A stretch of DNA of 20,749 nt from IMG/VR virus record IMGVR_UViG_3300050120_000037, positions 1 to 20,749 of that record. One strand, written 5' to 3'. Position 1 is the first letter of the stretch, and each line of letters begins with the position of its first letter. Origin of the DNA: a virus. Positions 9,485 to 20,149 of the stretch are shown here, in pieces. The translations under genes were made by a program, and so were the position numbers. The notes under the pieces are model-generated. The model was not told the origin of the DNA, searched no databases, and saw nothing but the letters and a program-made list of their open reading frames with translations.

Positions 9485-9928
9485 TTACTTAAATATCTTC
9501 TTGACCACAGCTTTACCGATGATCTCCGTGATTTCTTTTTCCTTGCGATAAGCCGAGCCCGCCAAAACTGAGCGGGCTGGCATCTTCGCGGTGCCGCCTT
9601 CGAGGTAGGCTGCTTCTTCGCGGTCAGAGCCTATGGCGACGGATGAGGAACCGTTGACGTGGTACTCAACCGAATCCTTGACCGCGCCGGTTCGATACAG
9701 CGGGTCATTTTCAGTAAAACCCTTGGACACACGATCTTCTTTGGTGAAATCGCTAAGTTCTGCCCAAGCTTCAACGTCTTTGATGGCCGTCTGATAGTGG
9801 CCATATTCGCTCTTGGCCTCTTCCTTGACGATCTTGCCAACTTCCGTCAGTCCCTCATGCGCGCCTTCGTTGATAACGATACTGAGCGTGAGGATTTTGA
9901 GCAGAAGTTGGTCAAGTCCGATGGTCAT
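9485..9928 (-). CDS. HK97 gp10-like tail completion/minor tail protein
   Basis: This 147-residue protein contains the two signatures of the HK97-gp10/phage virion morphogenesis family: DPLYRTGAVKDSVEYHV at 75-91 (the 'xLxxTGxxxxSI' motif) and AYLEGGTAKMPARSVL at 107-122 (the 'xEfGTxxMPARPFL' motif). In other phages family members act at the head-tail or tail-terminator junction. Its place here, between the frameshifted chaperone and the tape measure, is unusual, because the family is generally encoded among the neck genes before sheath and tube. The ATG at 9928 overlaps the stop of the frameshifted chaperone extension (TAATG), so its translation may be coupled to the frameshift product. Confidence 0.76.
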   Translation of the reverse strand: MTIGLDQLLLKILTLSIVINEGAHEGLTEVGKIVKEEAKSEYGHYQTAIKDVEAWAELSDFTKEDRVSKGFTENDPLYRTGAVKDSVEYHVNGSSSVAIGSDREEAAYLEGGTAKMPARSVLAGSAYRKEKEITEIIGKAVVKKIFK

Positions 9929-10505
9929 TATTTGGTAGTCTTCTTAATTGGCTGTAGTGTATCGTAGTTGTATTCGGTGCCTTCGGCTTCGTTGCCGATG
10001 ATCATGCCCGCCCACCTCAATGCAAAGGTGACGCGGGAGGGCGGCTTGCCGCCCCAAGCCTTGTCCCAATCCCAACCGTGTTTGTGTAAACCAAGAGCGA
10101 GGCGGACCTCCTGATTTTTTAGTAGTTTTTTACTTCATTCACGACCTGTTCAGCGGTTTCAGCATCCGCTTCGCGTTTCTCAAGTTCCTTGGTGATCGCG
10201 GTGGCGCCGTGCTTGCCGAGGGCGATGACCGCCGCGCGGACCTGTTGGGCGTTGATCGGGAAAGCGCGGGCGGCGCCGTCAATCGCGCGCACACCGGCGG
10301 CACGGGTGGCGATACCCACCAGCATGGGATTGATCGCGTCTTCACTGCCCATGGCGCGGGACAAGTCGTACTGCTCGATCAGATCAATATCGCGGTAGCG
10401 GATTTCCCGCCCCTTGGAGTCACTAACAGTGAAGGTGTCGGATTGGTCATCGACAACGTTTACTGGAATAGTCTTTTCGGATTTAATAGTCATGGTTGTA
10501 TTCAT
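9928..10505 (-). CDS. Tail assembly chaperone, -1 frameshift fusion (lambda GT-type)
   Basis: A -1 slip at AAAAAAC (10125-10131) joins the first 127 codons of the chaperone gene to an open frame of 65 more codons ending at 9928, to give 192 residues. After the slip the peptide reads LLKNQEVRLALGLHK, then HGWDWDKAWGGKPPSRV. The extension has a normal coding composition and its TAA overlaps the ATG of the next gene, so it is not a chance frame. This G/GT arrangement is conserved in long-tailed phages: the short form and fused form bind the tape measure and recruit tail tube monomers during tail assembly, and neither stays in the virion. In joined form: complement of 10125..10505 plus complement of 9928..10125. 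Confidence 0.9.
10119..10505 (-). CDS. Tail assembly chaperone, unshifted form (lambda G-type)
   Basis: This 128-residue short form stops at TAA (10119-10121) just after the slippery site. It is a mixed helix protein with SKGREIRYRDIDLIEQYDLSRAMG and later NPMLVGIATRAAGVRAIDG, similar in style to the chaperones of Mu-like phages; no zinc or enzymatic motif is seen. It follows tandem late promoter motifs and a hairpin. The start is uncertain: ATG at 10505 or the ATG at 10493, four codons in. Neither has a strong ribosome site; GGAA lies directly before the first ATG and about 12 bases before the second. Confidence 0.85.
   Translation of the reverse strand: MNTTMTIKSEKTIPVNVVDDQSDTFTVSDSKGREIRYRDIDLIEQYDLSRAMGSEDAINPMLVGIATRAAGVRAIDGAARAFPINAQQVRAAVIALGKHGATAITKELEKREADAETAEQVVNEVKNY
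10125..10131 (-). other. Programmed -1 ribosomal frameshift site, A AAA AAC
   Basis: The minus strand reads GTA AAA AAC TAC TAA in the chaperone frame, so A-AAA-AAC is in the correct phase for a tandem -1 slip of the two tRNAs. A TAA stop is reached two codons after the slip in the original frame, and the -1 frame is open to 9928. A strong GC hairpin lies at 10039-10054, but it is 71 bases away, too far for a classic stimulator. Confidence 0.9.
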
Positions 10506-10529
10506 TTCCGGGGTTAATGTTAAATAGTA

Positions 10530-10544
10530 GACGGCAGAGCCGTC
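10530..10544 (-). promoter_or_regulatory. Small hairpin in the chaperone mRNA leader
   Basis: GACGGC-AGA-GCCGTC gives a 6-base stem with a 3-base loop, 25 bases before the ATG and 8 bases after the CTAAATA motif. GACGGCAGA at 10530-10538 is also the inverted partner of TCTGCCGTC at 10573-10581, so an alternative pairing would flank the promoter motif. Confidence 0.45.
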
Positions 10545-10551
10545 CCATCCG

Positions 10552-10558
10552 TATTTAG
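10552..10558 (-). promoter_or_regulatory. Putative late promoter, CTAAATA motif (proximal copy)
   Basis: The minus strand reads GCCTAAATACGGATGG, 47 bases before the chaperone ATG. Its flanks match the fibre-gene copy at 2538 (GCC before, CGG after) and the distal copy at 10608 (CGG-N-TGG after). Confidence 0.58.
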
Positions 10559-10607
10559 GCGGTTGGAGACGTTCTGCCGTCCGGTCCCCCGGAAAGGTGA
10601 CCAGCCG

Positions 10608-10614
10608 TATTTAT
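10608..10614 (-). promoter_or_regulatory. Putative distal late promoter, ATAAATA variant
   Basis: The minus strand reads CAATAAATACGGCTGG, sharing TAAATACGG-N-TGG with the copy 56 bases downstream. This form is closer to the T4 late box (TATAAATA) than the others. It is in the 211-base gap between the divergent chaperone and plus-strand membrane gene; apart from the promoters and hairpins listed, I see nothing else in that gap. Confidence 0.45.
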
Positions 10615-10657
10615 TGGTTTGCGATATTCTACGTTCGCGAATTGAGCTTAAAGCGCC

Positions 10658-10687
10658 TTGACAGGCGATTCATTTGGCGCCTTTACT
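10658..10687 (+). promoter_or_regulatory. Sigma70-type promoter for the plus-strand membrane gene
   Basis: A perfect -35 box TTGACA (10658-10663) is followed by an 18-base spacer and TTTACT (10682-10687), which matches four of six -10 positions. The predicted start near 10694 leaves a short leader containing GAGAGGG, the ribosome site of the gene at 10717. A host promoter would permit expression outside the late programme. Confidence 0.6.
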
Positions 10688-10716
10688 TGGCGTGCTAATT
10701 TCGAGAGGGCTACCAA

Positions 10717-10893
10717 GTGGCATTTCTTACTGATCCAATCAAAGACCCCAACGACGTGAACGTGAAGTTGTCGGTGCTCAACACACTGATTACGGGGTGG
10801 AATGTCGCGAAGATCATCTACTGCATCTTCGCCGCAACCGGCCTGTTCATCGCTGGCGCTTTGGCCGTCGTCTTCATCTTCGACATCAAATAA
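10717..10893 (+). CDS. Small membrane protein, moron-like, opposite strand
   Basis: This 58-residue protein starts at GTG (10717-10719), with GAGAGGG 8-14 bases upstream, and ends at TAA (10891-10893). Residues 1-18 are polar (VAFLTDPIKDPNDVNVKL), about 19-32 are mildly hydrophobic and about 33-56 form one clear membrane helix (IIYCIFAATGLFIAGALAVVFIF), with a short DIK tail. The gene is on the opposite strand to all tail genes around it, has its own sigma70-type promoter and ends 12 bases before a bidirectional terminator, the classic moron layout. I do not recognise the family. A holin-like, superinfection-exclusion or other envelope role is possible but not shown by the sequence. Confidence 0.72.
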   Translation: MAFLTDPIKDPNDVNVKLSVLNTLITGWNVAKIIYCIFAATGLFIAGALAVVFIFDIK

Positions 10894-10905
10894 GCACAGA
10901 CATGA

Positions 10906-10932
10906 AAAAGGCCGGGGGATACCCGGCCTTTT
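10906..10932. terminator. Bidirectional rho-independent terminator
   Basis: AAAAGGCCGGG (10906-10916) and CCCGGCCTTTT (10922-10932) pair perfectly over 11 bases with a 5-base loop. T-rich runs follow on the plus strand, and five Ts end it on the minus strand. It lies between the convergent stops of the plus-strand membrane gene (10893) and the tail tube gene (10953), and serves both. Confidence 0.9.
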
Positions 10933-10952
10933 CTGTTTCTGACTTTTGGGGC

Positions 10953-11393
10953 TTAGACGGGCTCTTTACGCTCAGCCGAGAAGTCAACCTTCTGTTCGAC
11001 CGGCTTGGAATCCTGTTCCCACTTGCCTGCCGAAGACAGGTGGAGGGTGCAGTTGGTGTACATCCATCCACGCTGAGTGCCATCCTTTTCAGTGACGTAG
11101 TGATAGATCGTCATCAGGCTGGCAATACCAGCTTCAAACCAATCACTTTCGAGGCTGGTGAAGAAATCGTCCAGTGCGGGGTTACGACGGGTGACGGTGA
11201 AGCTACCGCTCCAACCTTCAGGTGCGTAGAAAGTGTGCCGACGACCGTCGAGACCCTTGACTACGATGTCGGTCTTGTCCTGCTTAGGCTCAAAATCCTT
11301 CACATATTGAATATCAATTTGCGACAGACCATCAGGCCCGATCAGGATAAGAGTATCGCCGTCTTTACCAAGGCTGAAATCAAAATTGCTCAT
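10953..11393 (-). CDS. Tail tube protein
   Basis: This 146-residue protein follows the sheath gene by 20 bases, where myophages encode the tail tube. It has the beta-rich pattern and size of Mu- and T4-type tube proteins: LILIGPDGLSQIDIQYVKDFEPKQDKTDIVVKGLDG (about 15-50), GWSGSFTVTRRNPALDDFFTSLESDWFEAG (about 60-89) and the C-terminal strand CTLHLSSAGKWEQDSKPVEQKVDFSAERKEPV. Hexameric rings of it would stack inside the sheath as the DNA channel. A possible AAAGG ribosome site is about 12 bases before the ATG, a long spacing. The gene ends its transcription unit, with a strong terminator 21 bases after the stop. Confidence 0.88.
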   Translation of the reverse strand: MSNFDFSLGKDGDTLILIGPDGLSQIDIQYVKDFEPKQDKTDIVVKGLDGRRHTFYAPEGWSGSFTVTRRNPALDDFFTSLESDWFEAGIASLMTIYHYVTEKDGTQRGWMYTNCTLHLSSAGKWEQDSKPVEQKVDFSAERKEPV

Positions 11394-11413
11394 TAGTTAC
11401 TGTTACCTTTACC

Positions 11414-12919
11414 TTAGTTTTGCGGCGTGATGGTGACACCAGCGCCAGCCTCAAGATTGAGGACCAGTTGGCGAATGATGCCCTGATATTGGACCTTCAC
11501 ATCCATGGTCATGTAACCAAGGGCTTGGTCTGCTTGGCTGTTGTTGCTGCTGTCGCAAACAACGCTGAACGGCATCTTGCCGTTGACTTTGGCGAGGATG
11601 CCCCGGTCCACCAGACTGCCGAGGAAGTTGGTGACCGTGGCCTTGGCCGCGTTCATCGTGTCTTGGTTGATGACCTGACCGTCGTAGATACCCAGTCCAG
11701 CCTTCAAAGTGGCGGACAGGTAGTTGGTCATCGTGGTCCAGCTATCGCTGTTCCAGAGCAAGTTGCTGCTGGTGTTGTATCCACCACGCAACGCCCAATA
11801 GTTCCCGCCATTGGCAGGGTTGGTGATTACATCGATGCCGTTTTGGAAGAGTTGGTTGCGTTCTGCCGAGCTATACGCAGAGCCCGAGGCAATACGCTCC
11901 GAAGTGACGATGCCAGAGACTTCTTTGTTGGCAGCGGACTCGTGCGGCAGGAGGTTGGAGCGGATACCGACCCAGAACCCCTGCGGAGAGACCTTGCGGA
12001 CAACACCGTTGATGGTGTCGTTGAACGACGGCCAGTCGCCTTGCAGTTCGACCGCCCAAGGGTTGTCGAGACCGGCCACATCCTTGGTGGCGATGGCGTT
12101 GGCAATGGTGTCGCCAGCCGGATCAACGATCCCTGCCAGCATGTATTCAGCCTGAGCAAACGCTGACTGAAGCGTCCAAGTCGAAGAGTCGTCCGCGTCG
12201 GACAGGACCAAGAACCGCACGCCTTGCTCACGCAGGGCATACATGCCGGTCTTCACGGTGCTGTCGGAACCGACCAGCATGGCTGCGGTCACGCCGGTGG
12301 CGCCGTCGGAGCCGCCCGCCAGTGTGAGGGTAGCTGCTGCCGGTGTGACGCTGGTGTTGCCGATAGCGGCGGTGATGAAGTTGGAAGGGCCGCGAGCAAC
12401 ACCCGCGCCGGTGGCGACTGCCGCCACAAAAGCGTTGGCAAAGCCGACGTTGGGCAGGTTGTCGAAAATTTCAGTGGTCTGGTTAGGGACAGTGACCGAA
12501 ACGGTGATGGAGTTGGACTTGGCGCCCGACGCGAGGGTCAGGCCGATTTGGTTGCCCAGAGAGCCGGTCCACTTGGCCGCGACCGAAGCGATGATGACCG
12601 GGGTGTTGGCGACCGAAACGGTGACGTTGCCGATGGCCTTCGTATCGGTGTTGTCCGTCGCGCGGATGAGCCGCATATCGGAGCAGCCGTTGACCGAAGC
12701 GGTGGCCACCTGAGTCATCAGGTCGTGCTTGCGGGTGGTCAGGTCACCGAAAATTGCGGCGCCTTGGGCGTAGCTGCCTGCCGTGGTGGGAACACCGACC
12801 GGGCCGAACGATGCAGAGCCAACGAAACCCGTGGTCCCCATCGAAACGCCATTCAGGGCCGCGATGGACGAGTCGATGATGTTGACATCAACGCCGGGGT
12901 CAAATGTATTGGTGGTCAT
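11414..12919 (-). CDS. Tail sheath protein
   Basis: This 501-residue protein has the sheath N-terminal signature DPGVDVNIIDSSIAALNGVSMGTTGFVGSASFGPVGVPTTAGSYAQGAAIFG (about 7-58), and the conserved C-terminal domain from about 415 (INQDTMNAAKATVTNFLGSLVDRGILAKVNGKMPFSV) through DVKVQYQGIIRQLVLNLEAGAGVTITPQN at the end. These C-terminal strands link neighbouring subunits and drive contraction. The middle (about 110-240) is Thr/Val/Ala-rich and likely surface-exposed. The ATG has GAGG nine bases upstream, and the gene is followed immediately by the tube gene. Presence of a sheath is what makes the window a contractile-tailed phage. Confidence 0.95.
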   Translation of the reverse strand: MTTNTFDPGVDVNIIDSSIAALNGVSMGTTGFVGSASFGPVGVPTTAGSYAQGAAIFGDLTTRKHDLMTQVATASVNGCSDMRLIRATDNTDTKAIGNVTVSVANTPVIIASVAAKWTGSLGNQIGLTLASGAKSNSITVSVTVPNQTTEIFDNLPNVGFANAFVAAVATGAGVARGPSNFITAAIGNTSVTPAAATLTLAGGSDGATGVTAAMLVGSDSTVKTGMYALREQGVRFLVLSDADDSSTWTLQSAFAQAEYMLAGIVDPAGDTIANAIATKDVAGLDNPWAVELQGDWPSFNDTINGVVRKVSPQGFWVGIRSNLLPHESAANKEVSGIVTSERIASGSAYSSAERNQLFQNGIDVITNPANGGNYWALRGGYNTSSNLLWNSDSWTTMTNYLSATLKAGLGIYDGQVINQDTMNAAKATVTNFLGSLVDRGILAKVNGKMPFSVVCDSSNNSQADQALGYMTMDVKVQYQGIIRQLVLNLEAGAGVTITPQN

Positions 12920-14937: not shown

Positions 14938-14944
14938 TATTTAG
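14938..14944 (-). promoter_or_regulatory. Putative late promoter at a leaderless start, CTAAATA
   Basis: The minus strand reads TCCTAAATACACTC followed directly by the ATG at 14932. It sits 16 bases downstream of the capsid terminator, so it would restart transcription for the neck and tail genes. Confidence 0.55.
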
Positions 14945-14959
14945 GAATACACAAGCGAA

Positions 14960-14981
14960 AGGCCGCCCCGAAGGACGGCCT
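14960..14981 (-). terminator. Rho-independent terminator after the capsid gene
   Basis: On the minus strand AGGCCGTCC pairs with GGGCGGCCT (one G-T pair) around the extra-stable loop TTCG, 30 bases after the major capsid stop. The T tract is short (TTTC), so it may be partial. On the plus strand the stem is followed by CTCTTTT. Confidence 0.75.
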
Positions 14982-15011
14982 CTCTTTTAGTCTCTAGCGA
15001 AGATGGAAGGT

Positions 15012-17036: not shown

Positions 17037-17315
17037 ATGAGTGATGAGTCCGAACAAGAGAAACCACGTAGAGGGAGGCCGGTGGGCACTGGTCTTCAAA
17101 AGAAATGGGTGCTGGTCGAAACGCCGGAACCCAAATGCAAGCCATTGCCTAGCCGCATCATCAATGAGCGACATACAAATGAGATTTCCACGCGAGGGCC
17201 AATGCTCGCCGCGTTGCGAAAACACATTGCGAAGCAAATGACACCGGAAATGTTGGAATCGCTCGAAAGGCCCTATCCGAAATCCGTCACAATTGTCCGA
17301 CCCGACCAGCCTTAG
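17037..17315 (+). CDS. Small hypothetical protein on the opposite strand, moron-like
   Basis: This 92-residue protein (ATG at 17037; a GTG-free frame upstream is rejected) is on the plus strand within a minus-strand late block. The N-terminus is acidic (SDESEQE), then comes KPRRGRPVGTG, which resembles an AT-hook or DNA-binding 'RGRP' patch, then a basic middle (SRIINERHTNEISTRG) and a helical part LAALRKHIAKQMTPEMLESLERP. Its TAG at 17313-17315 overlaps the portal gene TAA (17312-17314) on the other strand. I do not recognise a family. The RGRP patch hints at nucleic acid binding, but that is inference. A minus-strand frame over the same region has an unnatural composition and is the shadow. 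Confidence 0.58.
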   Translation: MSDESEQEKPRRGRPVGTGLQKKWVLVETPEPKCKPLPSRIINERHTNEISTRGPMLAALRKHIAKQMTPEMLESLERPYPKSVTIVRPDQP

Positions 17316-19009: not shown

Positions 19010-19348
19010 CTAAAGGTCCAGCCGACTATGGCGCGGCCAATCGCGACAGAATCGCAGCGCGTGGAACATAGAAACAAACTCAAGGGTGATCTGGGCATGG
19101 GCGCGAAAGTTGTCCACATCCTCATCAAGCTCGTCAGAAGTCTCCGCAGACATCAGAAACTCGCGATTGCAATTGATCCACGTCCGCACAGATTCCATAT
19201 CCGGTGAGGTGACCACGTTGTAGGTGACCTCACCGTCGGGCTGCGTTTCAAGGTCAGTCGCGGTGAAAGTCATATCCAATAGCACCCGCACGCCGGAAGA
19301 GCCGTGGTCACGCTTGGGAAAAGCGGTCTGGCGAAACTCCATCATCAC
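19010..19348 (-). CDS. Hypothetical protein
   Basis: This 112-residue acidic protein starts with three Met codons, the first overlapping the previous stop as ATGA; GAGG about 10 bases before the first supports it. The middle has VRVLLDMTFTATDLETQPDGEVTYNVVTSPD (about 20-50), a beta-like stretch, then helical WINCNREFLMSAETSDELDEDVDNFRAHAQITLEFVSMFHALRFCRDW. I recognise no family or catalytic motif. It is the last of the small-gene operon before the portal promoter, so it may be an early or middle gene, or a regulator of packaging; the sequence gives no more. Confidence 0.62.
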   Translation of the reverse strand: MMMEFRQTAFPKRDHGSSGVRVLLDMTFTATDLETQPDGEVTYNVVTSPDMESVRTWINCNREFLMSAETSDELDEDVDNFRAHAQITLEFVSMFHALRFCRDWPRHSRLDL

Positions 19349-19671
19349 GCTTCGGGCCTCGGATCATCAGTCAAGGCTTTCATACGGTCACGCCAACGCT
19401 TTGAGTATGCCTTGACTTTCTCAGGGTTAGCCTCACGCCAACGTTGAACCGAGGCCTTGGCCTTCTCACGGTTAGCCTCGCGCCATGCCTTGTTCGGGCC
19501 TTTGGCCTTCTCATTGTATCGCGCGCGGTCTTTTGCCGCCAAATTGCGCTGCTTGGTAGCAACGCAAGGCTTACAAATCCATTTGCGATAGTTCAGGAGT
19601 GATTGCGAGTAGTTCTCGCCCATGATCAGGGGCGCGTCACACTTGTTGCAGTGTTTTCCAATATTAGACAT
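19345..19671 (-). CDS. Zinc-ribbon protein with 15-residue helical repeats
   Basis: This 108-residue protein (ATG at 19671) has a zinc site of C8/C11 and C33/C36 (CNKC and CKPC) and then basic helices. The C-terminal half repeats REAN-x-EK-x-KA-x3-RW with a period of exactly 15 residues: REANREKAKASVQRW then REANPEKVKAYSKRW. Such arrays accompany phage HNH or endonuclease VII-type domains, but no HNH motif or catalytic residues are seen here. It overlaps the related 161-residue gene by 8 bases. A frame extending upstream of the ATG overlaps that gene and is not coding. DNA or RNA binding is inferred from the zinc ribbon and basic charge. Confidence 0.7.
   Translation of the reverse strand: MSNIGKHCNKCDAPLIMGENYSQSLLNYRKWICKPCVATKQRNLAAKDRARYNEKAKGPNKAWREANREKAKASVQRWREANPEKVKAYSKRWRDRMKALTDDPRPEA
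19419..19485 (-). repeat. Tandem 45-base direct repeat inside the zinc-ribbon gene
   Basis: A 22-base segment at 19419-19440 recurs at 19464-19485 with 20 of 22 bases identical, a 45-base step equal to 15 codons. It encodes the REAN helical repeat, and a related copy occurs near 19936 in the neighbouring gene, which points to internal duplication. Confidence 0.7.
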
Positions 19672-20149
19672 GCTCAGGGGCCTCTTTCCGGGCCTTGACG
19701 GCTCTGTAATAGATTCTGGAGTTGAGATTGATGCACTTTCGGCAAATTCTGCCGTTAGCCTTGCGCTTTTTGAGATCGACATTGACCCCGACCTGCATCT
19801 TGCGGCCGCAGTCGCGACATTTGAACGGCGCCAACAATATTGGCGTGTCCTTCGTCGTTTTGTCACGACGACGCTGTTTATATTCGGCAAGCTTTTCAGG
19901 GTGTGCATCACCCCATTTCTTGACTGCCGCACTGGCTTTGTCGCGGTTAGCCTTCCGCCAGCGGGCGTTGATGTCGCGCATCTTGGCGTTGTAGGCCTCG
20001 CGATTGTCGGCAGCCCATTGACGAGACTTGGCGCGGGCACAGTCGATACAAATGTTGTGGCGGGACTTTCGATCACAATTACGCCAATTCTCACCGGCGG
20101 TGATCGTGACGGAACAGTTCCGGCAAATCTTTGTTGGGGATCGTGTCAT
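19664..20149 (-). CDS. Two-zinc-ribbon protein with helical repeats, paralogue of neighbour
   Basis: This 161-residue protein has an N-terminal site with C9/C12 and C34/C37 (CRNC, CIDC, plus C25), then helices with the 15-residue period (RKANRDKASAAVKKW, GDAHPEKLAEYKQRR; about 66-95), and a C-terminal site with C111/C114 and C136/C139 (CRDC, CRKC). It is strongly basic. The layout, repeats and the 8-base overlap with the following gene indicate a duplicated pair. The family looks like phage proteins near HNH or endonuclease VII domains, but the nuclease core is absent. The ATG overlaps the stop of the preceding gene as ATGA; the ribosome site is weak. Confidence 0.7.
   Translation of the reverse strand: MTRSPTKICRNCSVTITAGENWRNCDRKSRHNICIDCARAKSRQWAADNREAYNAKMRDINARWRKANRDKASAAVKKWGDAHPEKLAEYKQRRRDKTTKDTPILLAPFKCRDCGRKMQVGVNVDLKKRKANGRICRKCINLNSRIYYRAVKARKEAPEHV

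Follow-up and report, generated by a model that had tools for sequence, protein, structure and literature searches.

What is a single 58-codon gene doing on the plus strand between two tail genes that are both read from the minus strand? The gene lies in a virus record fragment of 20,749 bases (the window, meaning the whole stretch of DNA analysed here). The minus strand of the window encodes the virion parts of a contractile-tailed phage: portal, capsid, sheath, tube (by position), probable chaperone, neck/tail completion, tape measure, baseplate and fibre. A preliminary description had proposed a self-contained cassette for a membrane protein, oriented against the tail operon. The features of the locus are as follows.

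10119..10505, minus strand: downstream tail gene, a probable tail assembly chaperone by position
10506..10952: insert of 447 bp separating two genes that adjoin each other in relatives
10552..10558, minus strand: CTAAATA late-promoter motif, between the cassette and the chaperone gene
10605..10613, minus strand: second TAAATACGG copy (AATAAATACGG), a degenerate partial duplicate of the late-promoter element, 56 bp away
10658..10687, plus strand: sigma70-like promoter, TTGACA (10658-10663), 18-nt spacer, TTTACT (10682-10687)
10703-10709, plus strand: ribosome-binding site GAGAGGG, 7 nt before the GTG at 10717
10717-10893, plus strand: gene of 58 codons, GTG start 10717, TAA 10893, from codon usage, hydropathy and model; its C-terminal membrane helix spans residues about 33-55 (hydropathy and model)
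10906..10932, both strands: bidirectional intrinsic terminator with an 11-bp stem, AAAAGGCCGGG/CCCGGCCTTTT
10953..11393, minus strand: upstream tail gene, a probable tail tube by its position next to the sheath

The frame at 10717-10893, preceded by an in-frame stop at 10696, was scored with a codon model trained on the structural genes of the phage itself. Its score of +33 bits was unmatched by any off-frame or antisense stretch of the same length in those structural genes. It was also the highest among all plus-strand frames, at 0.57 bits per codon versus at most 0.25 for the rest of the top ten. This is the only plus-strand frame having the codon usage of the phage, and it scores as the phage's own genes do. 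Its synonymous-codon score was higher than that of every one of 5000 versions in which the protein was recoded at random (p < 1/5000). The GC content of the gene is slightly lower than that of the window (51% vs 57%); because the difference is small and the codon usage is the phage's own, the gene is not a recent import.

The encoded protein contains a transmembrane (TM) stretch of 19 residues (37-55) with a Kyte-Doolittle hydropathy of 2.54, a value reached by 0.12% of 5792 mechanically derived open reading frames of similar size. An AlphaFold model, built from the single sequence and informative for topology only, consists of a single helix spanning residues 11-57 (pLDDT 82). With one strong predicted TM helix, the protein resembles the small inner-membrane proteins of the HK97 gp15 type. 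Codon usage, the C-terminal membrane helix and the terminator together indicate that 10717-10893 is almost certainly a real gene, and the single-helix membrane protein of 58 residues first read from the sequence is borne out. A second plus-strand frame (17037-17315, 92 aa) fills the gap between portal and scaffold and encodes a basic product with an RRGRPVGTG motif; its codon score is negative and no homologue was found, and its status as a gene is uncertain.

How did the gene come to lie there? The order sheath-tube-chaperone-neck-tape measure is conserved in relatives, and 155 related loci, partly non-independent, could be compared in which both flanking genes were identified. The gap between these two genes is -70 to 89 bp in 151 of them, usually -4 or -1, versus 447 bp in the window. 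A gap of 165-187 bp without a gene-like frame was observed in three further loci. In the one remaining locus (L151), a 972-bp gap at the same tube/chaperone junction holds a Rha-type regulatory gene (PF09669). The whole insert, frame included, is missing from every relative found. Since the flanking genes touch or nearly touch in 151 of the 155 loci and stand 447 bp apart here, the unit is a moron-like insertion; the operon comparison thus yields an inserted gene as in known phage morons, in agreement with the proposed counter-oriented cassette. Its placement between tail tube and chaperone holds as far as gene order is concerned, but the identities of the two neighbours are positional, since the only PHROGs matched by either protein are of unknown function. 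Behind the probable chaperone lies a minus-strand gap of 190 bp (9929-10118), which is perhaps a frameshift-made extension of the chaperone as in other tailed phages.

The signals around the gene are of unequal quality. The GAGAGGG ribosome site is present. The terminator is strong in both directions (z = -5.8 on the plus strand and -5.7 on the minus strand), so that the label "bidirectional" is right, and the gene has a terminator of its own (10906-10932), as a phage moron should. The proposed TTGACA/TTTACT promoter fares less well. Both hexamers are present and match at 10 of 12 positions, a fit equalled by 0.25% of 80-nt windows on either strand, but a stricter scan rejects the pair because the -10 hexamer lacks the key A at position 2. 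Moreover, both hexamers lie inside a 10-bp direct repeat, GCGCCTTGAC/GCGCCTTTAC (10653-10662 and 10677-10686), which could equally be an operator. For these reasons the promoter is the weakest part of the cassette; an autonomous host-type promoter with a weak -10 is plausible from the sequence. An extended -10 element, TGCTAATTT (10691-10699), was considered as an alternative and rejected, since its start point would land inside the ribosome site. Taken together, a real gene, inserted and forming its own unit, is a highly probable description of the locus.

The genes on the other strand have a signal of a different kind.

299, 2538, 4797, 7453, 10552, 14938, 16997 and 18976, minus strand: CTAAATA sites

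These eight sites (0.41 expected) each lie 5-68 nt upstream of the start of a structural gene, and the plus strand of the window contains none, hence none for the 58-aa gene. The contrast drawn at the outset between a host-type promoter and CTAAATA late signals is therefore upheld, with eight sites against zero. For the T4-like phage Aeh1, CTAAATA has been published as the motif of the late promoters (PMC1524935), and the eight sites upstream of late genes correspond to this variant of the T4-type late promoter. They suggest that a phage unrelated to T4 uses a late sigma system of the T4 type. The motif was also considered as a lineage-wide signal, which was rejected because it is not enriched in relatives; for the same reason the late system is particular to the phage of the window or to phages closely akin to it. 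The sites, identical to the Aeh1 motif, occur in a phage with tail genes that are not T4-like and with relatives that are without the motif. The layout of a terminator followed by CTAAATA recurs after the capsid gene (terminator 14957-14984, motif 14938-14944), which argues that the late genes are split into several units. In that case, the genes past the two-way terminator (10906-10932) need not be shut off by it.

What kind of phage carries the unit? No DNA-level similarity to the window was found among phage records. At the protein level, Komagataeibacter phiKX1 and phiKX2 come closest among phages (sheath identity 41%); both have been described among mitomycin-inducible temperate phages (PMC8566455). 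The same gene order occurs in many prophages, mostly of Acetobacteraceae, and in some plasmids; relatives were located inside bacterial chromosomes. The best sheath identity found was 46%, so that the collections hold no close relative.

The 58-aa protein itself is an orphan, and it matched no defence model. A tblastn search of 50,697 phage records returned no homologue, and only noise was obtained from single-protein scans of viral contigs, phages and plasmids and from 1180 whole genomes sampled around the hosts of the relatives at the family, class and phylum levels. Two candidates for the same gene were rejected: a weakly matching 102-aa gene that directly follows the capsid gene of relatives, which encodes a Gly/Ser-rich soluble protein and scored 10-12 bits, and a counter-oriented frame between sheath and tube in phiKX1, whose product is basic and has no TM segment.

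Several known systems are similar in arrangement. HK97 gp15 is a superinfection-exclusion moron encoding a predicted inner-membrane protein (PMC10883804). Proteins of the gp15 type are expected to keep the DNA of superinfecting phages from entering a lysogen. The likeness is that of a single moron gene of a temperate-type tailed phage with a predicted inner-membrane product, and it concerns how the proteins may work, no sequence homology to gp15 having been detected. The 58-aa gene differs in being counter-oriented to the tail operon of a phage with a sheathed, contractile tail, and exclusion is only predicted here. Tab of Pseudomonas phage JBD26 is a moron that runs against the late operon and has a promoter to itself (PMC10884400). 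Here too a small gene is inserted on the opposite strand of a late operon with its own, putative, promoter; however, the 83-aa Tab is encoded between terminase genes and acts by blocking the assembly of virions, whereas the protein of the window is a membrane peptide. The "ant moron" of P22 and the lambdoid morons are independently expressed genes that are inserted into the late operon and vary among relatives (PMC2629481). The present gene shares the insertion and the variation, and differs in location, gene content and size.

The reading put forward, to which we assign a probability of roughly 45%, is that the locus is a moron for a 58-aa inner-membrane protein that likely serves as a phage-exclusion factor, in a role like that of HK97 gp15 or JBD26 Tab. 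A unit of one gene, oriented against its neighbours, lies inserted where two tail transcription units of the contractile-tailed phage meet. The gene would be read from the putative promoter by host RNA polymerase, and the C-terminal helix would hold the product in the cytoplasmic membrane. The two-way terminator would both end the plus-strand transcript and halt late transcription arriving from the tube gene. Judging from the sites, the CTAAATA motif behind the cassette would then set off late transcription again, for the chaperone, neck and tape measure genes. Because the gene has no late signal, we infer that its product is made outside the late phase, probably before it in early infection or in a carrier cell. 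The protein would act from the inner membrane on the host or on competing phages, and probably works on the infected cell rather than forming part of the virus particle. It may alter the inner membrane in a way that hinders the entry or growth of competing phages. Taken on its own, such an exclusion role is possible, though less likely than not. Counting against the reading as a whole are the missing homologue, which leaves it no support from conservation or selection, the poor -10 hexamer, the absence of a defence-model match, the lack of the CTAAATA late system in the prophage relatives, and a base composition and codon usage that do not mark the gene as a recent import.

Other explanations were weighed against this moron. 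Early phage genes usually stand together in groups, not singly within a tail operon. The solitary position of the 58-aa gene thus speaks against a membrane peptide for host takeover, of early or middle class, in a lytic phage, which would be transcribed from a host-type promoter soon after infection and modulate the host membrane or lysis timing without lysogeny or exclusion. The prophage or mitomycin-inducible nature of the closest structural relatives points the same way. In its favour, the putative promoter is indeed host-type, the window (a 20.7-kb fragment) contains no lysogeny genes, and the T4-type late motif is typical of lytic T4-like phages and missing from the prophage relatives; on balance this explanation is rather unlikely. 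The size and the single hydrophobic helix would also fit a small membrane toxin, either by itself or as part of a type I toxin-antitoxin pair in which antisense RNA from the minus strand silences it, and the gene does lie against a minus-strand operon, with the late-promoter-like sites pointing away from it. However, the two-way terminator would stop minus-strand RNA from the tube side before reaching the gene, a scan of 9500-12000 found no opposing promoter-like site that could yield an antisense RNA and no minus-strand promoter inside the insert that faces the gene, and the window has no Rfam match, making a toxin improbable.

A function in lysis or the virion, as a holin-like or tail-associated membrane protein whose gene moved strand, would account for the position among tail genes, and single-TM peptides of similar size include holin-like proteins. 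It is more improbable still, as the strand of the gene lacks the CTAAATA late signal, no PHROG or Pfam holin match was obtained, and the gene is absent from all related virion gene clusters. The lack of a homologue and the poor -10 hexamer would be expected if a chance frame had met chance signals and there were no gene at all. Codon usage and hydropathy speak against this, as do the ribosome site, the terminator and the insertion, and it is very improbable indeed.

The tail clusters of relatives also contain other counter-oriented genes.

L005, L046, L059, L076, L088, L105, L151, L164, L168 and L199-L203, neck/tape-measure junction: genes of the ADRxSFVQYP family, counter-oriented
L004 4098-4631 and L145 10036-10497, neck/tape-measure junction: Mrr_cat endonucleases, counter-oriented
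L065 9962-10531, neck/tape-measure junction: T5orf172 protein, counter-oriented

Members of the ADRxSFVQYP family have 70-95 aa, an N-terminal EWLADRxSFVQYPxxR motif, a C-terminal TM segment and no PHROG match. Of the 23 loci with both neck and tape measure genes resolved, 13 have a member between the two, a count in which some contigs appear twice (e.g. L164/L199 and L151/L202) and most searched loci, being unresolved, do not enter. Wherever both neighbours of a family gene are resolved, the gene is at this junction. The 58-aa protein is like these proteins in belonging to the same virion gene cluster, in its orientation and in its C-terminal TM segment, but their junction is a different one; it also lacks the N-terminal motif and scores 3 bits against the family profile, and membership was rejected. 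No homology to the ADRxSFVQYP, Mrr or T5orf172 genes was found.

The Mrr_cat endonucleases and the T5orf172 protein are candidate phage-competition genes. Together with the ADRxSFVQYP family, their presence supports the view that independent genes in counter-orientation can be accommodated in the tail cluster and that some are of a competition type, which is not proof for the 58-aa gene. A more far-reaching idea, itself doubtful, is that counter-oriented genes have a general slot in the tail cluster of this lineage, filled by unrelated proteins in different branches and by the 58-aa peptide here. The membrane peptides among them would then be a new exclusion class, whose nearness to the tape measure gene would reflect that they act on, or must spare, tape-measure-dependent entry. 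With the present locus, an orphan membrane-protein moron becomes known from a little-studied group of phages with contractile tails, centred on acetic acid bacteria; the tail genes of this group repeatedly host counter-oriented extras, including nuclease-type candidates for phage-phage competition. These counter-oriented tail genes constitute a small, concrete test set for tail-linked exclusion functions. Elsewhere in the window, two minus-strand frames adjoining the portal gene (19345-20149) are zinc-finger/HNH- or endonuclease VII-like, with weak PHROG matches.
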